A program made the translations under genes and the position numbers. Shown one piece after another: positions 27,582 through 43,815 of a stretch of 64,000 bases of DNA; the stretch's first letter is position 1, and the number at the start of each line of letters is the position of its first letter. The DNA is from Mesorhizobium sp. L-2-11 (GTDB lineage Bacteria > Pseudomonadota > Alphaproteobacteria > Rhizobiales > Rhizobiaceae): positions 3,364,001 to 3,428,000 of the forward strand of contig NZ_AP023257.1 of the NCBI RefSeq assembly GCF_016756595.1, read 5' to 3'. The notes beneath the pieces are model-generated. The model had not been told where the DNA came from. It was given only the letters and a program-made list of their open reading frames with translations, and ran no database searches.

Positions 27582-27649
27582 CGAAAGGGACTTCCTCGCC
27601 AGAACGATCCTCCCAGAACGATTCTCAGTGCTCGTCGATCCTGAAAACA

Positions 27650-27770
27650 ACAACACCCGCCGGGGGAGGAGGTCCGGCGGGTGTCGTTTTGCAGGTCGAT
27701 CCTCGGGAGGAGGTGAAGATCGACCGTATTCGCCATCGCCGGGGAGGAGGTCGGCTTTGACGAAATTCCT
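27650..27770 (-). ncRNA. cuckoo-type sRNA unit 2, three CCTCCTCCC hairpins
   Basis: On the minus strand, three stem-loops each display CCTCCTCCC (complements at 27742-27750, 27705-27713 and 27664-27672). The last has a perfect 11-bp stem (ACACCCGCCGG / CCGGCGGGTGT at 27653-27663 and 27674-27684) around a 10-base loop, and on the minus strand it is followed by a T-rich TGTTGTTTTC. The motif is the signature of alphaproteobacterial 'cuckoo' / CcsR sRNAs that occur downstream of DUF1127 genes. RNA ends are approximate. Confidence 0.75.
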
Positions 27771-27822
27771 TTCGCCTTATGAAGGGGGCGAAACCCCAGG
27801 ACGAAACGTGTTTCGTCCTTTA

Positions 27823-27943
27823 AACAGCGCCCGCCGCGGGAGGAGGTGCGGCGGGCGCCGTTTTTGTGGTCAACCCTCGGGAGGAGGTGAAGGCTGACCG
27901 TATCCGTCAGGGTCGGGGAGGAGGTCGACCCTGGCGAAATTCT
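27823..27943 (-). ncRNA. cuckoo-type sRNA unit 1, three CCTCCTCCC hairpins
   Basis: This is the unit next to the DUF1127 stop codon, with CCTCCTCCC complements at 27916-27924, 27879-27887 and 27838-27846. The internal spacings (37 and 41 bases) are identical to those of unit 2, so the units are tandem duplicates with a 174-base period. The third hairpin has a perfect 11-bp stem (GCGCCCGCCGC / GCGGCGGGCGC, 27827-27837 and 27848-27858). Between the units lies a 22-base palindrome (27798-27819), a possible processing or termination site. Confidence 0.75.
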
Positions 27944-27945
27944 GA

Positions 27946-28086
27946 CTAGATCGCCTTGCGGGCGATGCTCTTGATCTCTTCGCGGACGATGCCGAGATCA
28001 TGCAGCTGGCGGTTCGAAAGGCGGCCCAGCTCGGTAACCGTCGAGCGATAAACGCGCCAGTTACGATAGTTGCGGATCAGGTTCAT
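27946..28086 (-). CDS. DUF1127 microprotein (second copy)
   Basis: A 46-aa basic protein, MNLIRNYRNWRVYRSTVTEL and then GRLSNRQLHDLGIVREEI. It matches the DUF1127 pattern: an Arg-rich start, then LxxLSDxxLxDIGIxRxxI. Small arginine-rich DUF1127 proteins act in RNA turnover and in phosphate and carbon metabolism in alphaproteobacteria, and CcaF1 of Rhodobacter binds RNA. AGAGAAC precedes the ATG. Two anti-Shine-Dalgarno sRNA units begin just 3' of the stop. It is too short for most gene finders. Confidence 0.9.
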   Translation of the reverse strand: MNLIRNYRNWRVYRSTVTELGRLSNRQLHDLGIVREEIKSIARKAI

Positions 28087-28140
28087 TGTCGTTCTCTTTT
28101 CGAGTCAAACTGGTTCGGACCATTTGCGGTCCGAAGAGGA

Positions 28141-28281
28141 TTAGACCGCCTTGCGGGCGACGTAGTGGATGTCGCCGCGGCTGATGCCGAGGTCGGTCAG
28201 TTCACGGTTGCTCAGGCGGCTCAGCTCGGAAACGGTGTCCCGGTAGCGGCGCCAGTTGCGGTAGTTGCGGATCAGGTTCAT
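28141..28281 (-). CDS. DUF1127 microprotein (first copy)
   Basis: A 46-aa paralogue of the next gene with the same first ten residues (MNLIRNYRNW), then RRYRDTVSELSRLSNRELTD and LGISRGDI. It lies 54 bases upstream of the second copy on the same strand, so the pair and the downstream sRNAs probably form one transcript. The upstream 110 bases contain a perfect 17-bp dyad at 28392-28408. Confidence 0.9.
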   Translation of the reverse strand: MNLIRNYRNWRRYRDTVSELSRLSNRELTDLGISRGDIHYVARKAV

Positions 28282-28391
28282 GGTATTCTCGTTTCGTCTT
28301 TCTTTCGGATCATTCCGTCTTTGTGTACGCCCAGAAGATAGGTTGGGTCATATCGATTTAAAAGCGCTATTGGTGCATGGCAGCAATGCAA

Positions 28392-28408
28392 ATTGTGCAA
28401 TGCACAAT
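28392..28408. promoter_or_regulatory. perfect 17-bp dyad upstream of the DUF1127 genes
   Basis: ATTGTGCA-A-TGCACAAT is an exact inverted repeat, 111 bases before the first DUF1127 start codon and 110 bases before the divergent DUF2157 pseudogene. It looks like a dimeric repressor or activator site. The bound protein is unknown. Confidence 0.5.
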
Positions 28409-28517
28409 CACCAGCAATTCTCGTCTTCGACATAGATAGGCACGAATCGGAAAATGCCGTAGCGTCAACGGTTTGATCGGGTCGGCTGAAGAAACGACCA
28501 AGCTGGGGGAGAAAGGC

Positions 28518-43387: not shown

Positions 43388-43815
43388 ATCCCGTTCCTCC
43401 CGGCATTCCAAGGGCGCGAAGCCGTCCCAGGAAATGCCAAATGCATCATAGCTCGATTTCCGGTCGAAATTCTAGTGCGGTGTTCCCGTCAGCCGAAAAC
43501 ACAATGGCGATGATGTGGAAGAACCCAAGAAGAAGAAGGCTGCGGCGAAGAAAAAACCTGCTCGGGCAACGAACAACACGGCTTGCTGCCGGATCGTGAA
43601 CGGGCGCCGCCTCGCGGGGAGGAGGCTGATTCGGGATGGTGCCGACGGGATCAGGCAGAGCAGACCGGCTTCTGCTGTGCTGGCGGTTCGGGTTGCTGTC
43701 GGGGCGAGGGGGGCCGATTTCAACCTAACCGGGGTTCAGCGAGGCGGTCGGCCGGATCGCCGCACCTGCAACGCCGAGTTGCCGTGATCGGATCAGCCGC
43801 CCTGACCGCTGCGCT
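43388..43815. other. intergenic stretch, no supportable gene
   Basis: 428 bases between the oxidase operon and the end of the LysR gene. A plus-strand open frame (GTG 43515, 90 codons) starts with a Lys-rich EEPKKKKAAAKKKPARATNN but soon becomes Arg-rich random-looking sequence with no ribosome-binding site. It may be a gene remnant. The oxidase promoter should lie near 43390-43500. Confidence 0.5.

Follow-up and report, generated by a model that had tools for sequence, protein, structure and literature searches.

Tandem αr14 RNA units behind a pair of DUF1127 microprotein genes and a candidate LsrB-type promoter box in Mesorhizobium

The CcsR or cuckoo RNAs of Rhodobacter are built from two hairpins per RNA. 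CcaF1 and CcsR1-4 have been described as co-transcribed into a single RNA that ends with a terminator (PMC10253847), an RpoHI/RpoHII promoter has been reported for the CcsR RNAs of Rhodobacter (PMC10253847), and their maturation has been attributed to RNase E together with CcaF1 (PMC8625941; for RNase E also PMC7866481). The occurrence of DUF1127 genes beside CcsR-like RNAs has already been published under the name "CIN1 locus" (cited in PMC10253847). For the DUF1127 proteins themselves, both binding to RNA (CcaF1) and binding to a protein (PhoR in Agrobacterium) have been reported, which has been called an "intriguing puzzle" (PMC12501420).

A second group of small RNAs, the αr14 RNAs, is reported to have three hairpins in common, in each of which the anti-Shine-Dalgarno motif CCUCCUCCC is ultraconserved, whereas the stems differ (PMC10746234, PMC7143759). 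For SmelA075, three hairpins with the same loop motif were noted as early as 2011 (PMC3927594). NfeR1 of Sinorhizobium meliloti is described as transcribed from its own sigma-70 promoter, to which LsrB binds and which contains a site of the form TGCA-N6-GCAT at -72 to -60 (PMC10746234). LsrB, also known as VtlR, is in turn connected with DUF1127 genes: VtlR is reported to activate three of them in Brucella (PMC12595884) and, in Agrobacterium, the small-protein gene atu1667, an orthologue of the Brucella DUF1127 genes, with GCAT-N3-TG-N3-T as the proposed VtlR box (PMC7486931). In our literature search, LsrB control of αr14 RNAs and LsrB control of DUF1127 genes were not joined, and a search on LsrB, NfeR1 and DUF1127 found NfeR1 and DUF1127 together in none of the papers listed; with central papers outside the reach of the search, both results are weak evidence for novelty.

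Our own analysis concerned a window of 64,000 nt from Mesorhizobium sp. L-2-11, by which we mean the whole stretch of DNA analysed. The window contains eight copies of CCTCCTCCC, all of them on the minus strand, while in dinucleotide shuffles of the same stretch the motif occurred 0.60 times on average and three times at most, and none of 100 shuffles reached eight. Six of the copies (27664-27672, 27705-27713, 27742-27750, 27838-27846, 27879-27887 and 27916-27924) lie together within 27664..27924 on the minus strand; the remaining two are found at 43617 and 63456. The six form two units of three with a motif spacing of 37 and then 41 nt in both units and a unit period of 174 nt, just as the preliminary description had stated. 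Upon folding, each unit forms three hairpins with the motif inside a 10-nt loop (fold z of -8.92 for unit 1 and -6.53 for unit 2), and none of 200 shuffles was as stable. The six CCTCCTCCC hairpins noticed beforehand on the minus strand are therefore real and far beyond chance. The perfect 11-bp stems with 10-base loops that had been ascribed to all of them were found in part: the loops are indeed of 10 nt and the middle hairpin has a perfect 11-bp stem in both units, the sole one to do so, whereas the stem of the first hairpin is broken up into 8+4 bp in unit 1 and 7+4 bp in unit 2, and the stems of the third measure 16 and 15 bp.

Both unit 1 (27822..27942, minus strand) and unit 2 (27648..27768, minus strand), which follow the same plan with CCUCCUCCC in each loop, match the Rfam family RF02344 (ar14), whose cut-off is 58.8 bits, with scores of 96.3 and 88.0 bits, and are members of the αr14/NfeR1 family. 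The preliminary description had regarded the three-hairpin unit as an architecture of its own. The published αr14/NfeR1 RNAs have the same plan, and since this plan has also been described for SmelA075 and both units exceed the ar14 cut-off, it is not new. The spacer between the units (27769..27821, minus strand) holds a perfect additional hairpin, AGGACGAAA/UUUCGUCCU, without the motif, and its length differs between relatives. This hairpin was considered as a conserved processing site and dropped, because the unit-to-unit period varies from 130 to 226 nt across the genus.

Directly upstream of the units and on the same strand lie two genes for microproteins of 46 aa each, the first at 28141..28281 and the second at 27946..28086 (both minus strand), which match the DUF1127 domain PF06568 with 61.6 and 55.9 bits and so confirm the DUF1127 pair that had been named. 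The combination that characterizes the CIN1 locus, a short DUF1127 gene together with motif-hairpin RNAs, is thus what is found here, and the earlier view of tandem anti-Shine-Dalgarno RNA units behind a DUF1127 pair, related to cuckoo/CcsR RNAs, agrees with the Rfam and Pfam matches.

The genome of 7.4 Mb contains six αr14 matches, four of them outside the window, and the 3.1-kb loci around these four show no DUF1127 frame on the strand of the RNA. Three of the four are stand-alone copies in which ACTCCTCCC replaces CCTCCTCCC as the first motif, leaving two perfect motifs; the fourth, likewise stand-alone, has three perfect motifs and lies behind a gene whose product has, judged by eye, a phasin-like end.

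For the analysis of structure, 80 of 84 unit matches were aligned after identical ones had been dropped. They were taken from the window, from the best-scoring loci of the family search (L007-L035) and from 12 others, of which two (L106, L130) added none; 75 belong to the genus-type locus and five to other loci (L041, L059, L071, L119, L131). In 93.1% of the cells of the 80 units the two sides of the named structure pair, compared with 30.8-52.5% when the partner is slid, a comparison in which the structure is somewhat favoured over the slid controls because it was taken from the window's own unit. Of the 39 pairs, 26 changed on both sides, compared with 11.5 in shuffles, and in hairpin 2 all 11 pairs did so. 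The 9-nt motif is kept in the loops of nearly all 80 units while the stems vary, which is partly so by construction as the units were picked by this loop motif. The selection on structure that had been suspected is supported by this covariation, and the stems and motif loops are kept in homologous loci.

The locus is well conserved. Of 101 genomes searched, 74 had a family match with an E-value no higher than 0.001, and 62 had one above the cut-off; within the genus, all 61 genomes (our own and 60 others) had a family match. The genus set comprised 64 loci: 30 genomes contributed their best-scoring locus each and 30 others contributed 34 stretches, one genome with a single weak match (G023) being left out. 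Two DUF1127 genes precede the units in 59 of the 64 loci, which come from 59 of the 61 genomes; in one other (G050), the two stretches examined, of three matches, gave no DUF1127-linked copy. The arrangement with two DUF1127 genes was also found in the named Mesorhizobium records L057, L072, L085 and L099. As its copies in the genus are homologous to each other, their conservation does not constitute independent evidence. Linked loci contain one called unit (3 loci), two (38), three (17) or four (1). In the genome G005, four tandem αr14 units stand behind the DUF1127 pair, and the second and third of them score alike. In the 29 loci with at least two aligned units, the nearest neighbour of a first unit was another first unit in 29 of 29 cases, and that of a last unit another last unit in 29 of 29; this pattern marks the units at the two ends as old paralogues. 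DUF1127 genes in relatives were detected with a loose regular expression instead of an HMM, so that unrelated short frames may be included, mostly among the clusters with a distant DUF1127 frame described below.

Upstream of the first DUF1127 gene we found a candidate box of the LsrB/VtlR type, GCATTGCTGCCATGCA, at 28374..28389 (minus strand), which fits GCAT-N3-TG-N3-T, and overlapping with it, at 28386..28399 (minus strand), a TGCA-N6-GCAT sequence of the kind that LsrB binds at the NfeR1 promoter, so that the two forms together occupy 28374-28399. From a comparison of promoters, the TAT of a presumed -10 element would lie at 28338..28340 (minus strand), 49 nt after the start of the box; the corresponding distance is 48 nt in a weak consensus of 33 stand-alone αr14 promoters. 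A transcript start near 28328 is predicted from this arrangement. The 16-mer GCATTGCTGCCATGCA has one exact copy in the 7.4-Mb genome and three copies with one mismatch; with up to three mismatches there are 166 matches, compared with 27 for the backward control, so that only near-exact copies of the box mean much. Two of the one-mismatch boxes are not placed before a DUF1127 gene. The other lies 83 nt ahead of a further 46-aa DUF1127 gene (contig C1 of the same genome, near 1212961-1213190), and the DUF1127 strand of this 3-kb locus carries no CCTCCTCCC. A combined pattern of box, -10 element and ATG, run over 199 genomes of the order, proved too loose, as 117 of 199 matched.

The position of the box is a constant feature of the locus: it is found 454-475 nt before the first motif in all 59 DUF1127-linked genus loci. 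A scan of named genomes, which is neither a census nor a random sample, covered at least 120 stretches, which gave 117 clusters after removal of 3 duplicates and 111 after removal of 6 without 600 nt of upstream sequence. Among the matches listed, clusters without DUF1127 had a box at 60-90 nt in 25 of 67 cases and lacked it there in 42 of 67, clusters with a distant DUF1127 frame had it in 7 of 19, and directly linked clusters in 0 of 25. Two-DUF loci, in turn, had a box at 441-500 nt in 7 of 7 cases and one-DUF loci at 251-300 nt in 5 of 18, among the matches listed. In the other 13 of these 18 one-DUF loci the box was missing at 251-300 nt; among the matches listed, at least four of the 13 are Rhodobacterales, and others bear the names Martelella, Labrenzia and Brucella. 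Boxes outside these bins occurred in 6 clusters without DUF1127, in 1 one-DUF locus and, at 441-600 nt, in 6 clusters with a distant DUF1127 frame, while the reversed motif gave 1 hit and the complemented motif 4 when all bins and groups are counted (again among the matches listed).

These distances bear on the question of how the RNAs are transcribed. The αr14 units could be stand-alone small RNA genes with hidden promoters of their own inside the second DUF1127 gene or the spacer, in line with the four copies of this genome that have no DUF1127 frame on their strand and with the sigma-70 promoter described for NfeR1 (PMC10746234). We regard this as unlikely, since none of the 134 called units in the 59 linked genus loci has a box 60-90 nt upstream. 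The own-promoter trait reported for NfeR1, which is outside the structural definition of the family, is accordingly not seen here in the form of such a box, which precedes the DUF1127 genes instead; a promoter of some other type may lie within the second DUF1127 gene. Furthermore, a consensus promoter scan of 27600-28500 returned a single promoter-like site, which is on the opposite strand. Unit 1 begins 3 nt past the stop of the second DUF1127 gene, and in all 59 linked loci this stop precedes the first motif by 19-37 nt.

The transcript ends argue in the same direction. Unit 1 has no U-tract after its third hairpin, and the U-rich tail TTGTTGTTTT after unit 2 is likely to be the end of the transcript. 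Throughout the linked loci the 14 bases after the third hairpin contain 1.8 T in internal units (n=74) and 4.8 in last units (n=58), a difference with p=2e-17 when related loci are treated as independent, and one against which it works that some "last" units are not truly last, owing to an uncalled degenerate unit or a contig end. U-tracts are thus mostly missing from internal units, which again speaks against separate genes. A terminator scan with a loop limit of 8 found none on the minus strand, where the loops are of 10 nt, and four on the plus strand.

We therefore turn to a common transcript. A chain of RNAs that terminates only after its last member, as in CcaF1-CcsR, points to a processed precursor, and processing would be a departure from S. 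meliloti NfeR1 with its own promoter. In our model, LsrB (VtlR), a LysR-type regulator, would bind the box before the first DUF1127 gene, and a single transcript driven from there would encode both DUF1127 microproteins and contain both αr14 RNAs, which would themselves lack promoters. The αr14 RNAs would then be released from the 3' part by an RNase, probably RNase E, possibly aided by the DUF1127 proteins, as CcaF1 aids the maturation of CcsR. We consider it probable that DUF1127-DUF1127-(αr14)n is such an LsrB-driven transcript, cut into small RNAs in the manner of the Rhodobacter CcsR RNAs. In S. meliloti only one of six αr14 copies has been reported as detectable by northern blot (PMC7143759), and for this reason the copy in the window could be silent.

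Since the hairpins adjoin the genes, have very stable stems and end, in the last unit, with a terminator-like tail, they might also be read as a 3' UTR of the DUF1127 mRNA that acts in cis, by stabilising or terminating it or as a sink for the DUF1127 ribosome-binding sites, with no role in trans. This is very unlikely in our judgement: even in units selected by the motif, the change of the stems around a constant loop is opposed to it, αr14 copies without a DUF1127 gene exist, and NfeR1 is reported to act in trans (PMC10746234).

The regulator required by the model of a common transcript appears to be present. The genome has five matches to ar15 (the AbcR family), and the neighbours of two of them were inspected. 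A LysR gene lies about 0.9 kb from one of these, with one other frame between, and follows a frame that by eye resembles a thioredoxin reductase. Its product matches PDB 9HH1 at 2.7e-143, an entry that is reported to be the structure of Agrobacterium LsrB (PMC11975290), and by this similarity the LysR protein is an LsrB orthologue. An LsrB/VtlR-type box, GCATAGCTGCACTGCAC, was also seen about 61 nt before the best-scoring ar15 match, on contig C3 of the genome. The genome thus holds both a candidate promoter box at the locus and a protein of the LsrB type, from which we infer control of the DUF1127-αr14 operon by LsrB. These data suggest that one redox-linked regulator may turn on the microproteins and the RNAs jointly.

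Released αr14 RNAs would be expected to pair, through three redundant CCUCCUCCC loops per RNA, with the ribosome-binding sites of mRNAs, chiefly those for transport, and to block their translation. The preliminary description had put forward mRNAs with full GGGAGGAGG leaders as targets, for which the evidence is weak: GGGAGGAGG occurs 3-9 nt before an ATG at 3 sites in 7.4 Mb, compared with 3 for the reversed control, and perfect leaders were rejected as a target set. The eight-base sequence GGAGGAGG was found 3-10 nt before an ATG at 23 sites compared with 10 for the reversed control. Eleven of the 23 open frames of at least 200 aa, and of ten that were scanned with Pfam, five are parts of ABC transporters (two periplasmic binding proteins, two ATPases and one permease). 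A transporter bias has also been reported among the targets of NfeR1 (PMC7143759); the share of ABC-transport frames behind GGAGGAGG, which comes without a background rate, agrees with this bias and may serve as a lead only.

The missing enrichment of perfect GGGAGGAGG leaders could also indicate that the motif loops are decoys, which act on ribosomes or on an RNA-binding protein and not on individual mRNAs. The resemblance of CCUCCUCCC to the 3' end of 16S rRNA would fit such a function. With the excess of eight-base sites before ATG, and with NfeR1 reported to silence mRNAs via its three motifs (PMC10746234, PMC7143759), a decoy is hardly to be expected, and we keep to pairing with individual mRNAs.

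The RNA family and its association with DUF1127 genes were already known, and the feature is real and well conserved. The present analysis adds the position of the presumed LsrB-type promoter shared by genes and RNAs, the missing boxes of the units, the mostly missing internal U-tracts and the genus-wide conservation. LsrB control, if correct, would bring tandem αr14 RNAs into the LsrB regulon in a genus of legume symbionts. One may go further and suggest that, within this genus, DUF1127 microproteins and anti-Shine-Dalgarno RNAs, both already known as outputs of the LsrB regulon, have been fused into a single operon, the DUF1127 pair being a dedicated partner that matures or delivers αr14 RNAs, which act independently of Hfq in S. 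meliloti. We offer this only tentatively, as possible rather than probable; if it were true, a redox signal would fix the ratio of RNA to chaperone. With DUF1127 genes and a small RNA of known mechanism under one predicted promoter, and with 59 of the 61 genomes of the genus carrying it, the locus offers a clean test of whether the protein serves the RNA.

Compared with αr14/NfeR1 of S. meliloti, the units described here have the same three hairpins with CCUCCUCCC unpaired in each, variable and covarying stems, a length of about 123 nt and an LsrB-type site upstream, and both genomes have six αr14 copies. NfeR1 has its own promoter, whereas here the site precedes two DUF1127 genes and the tandem units are without a promoter box of their own and, apart from the last, without a U-tract. 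The locus also resembles the DUF1127 genes activated by VtlR/LsrB, three in Brucella and atu1667 in Agrobacterium, where a small DUF1127 gene likewise stands behind a box of the same type; the accessible text of the reports on these genes does not mention αr14 units behind them (PMC12595884, PMC7486931). Finally, it shares with the CcaF1-CcsR1-4 operon of Rhodobacter sphaeroides (CIN1, cuckoo RNAs) the order of a DUF1127 gene followed by tandem homologous small RNAs, and differs from it by three hairpins per RNA and a box of the LsrB type.
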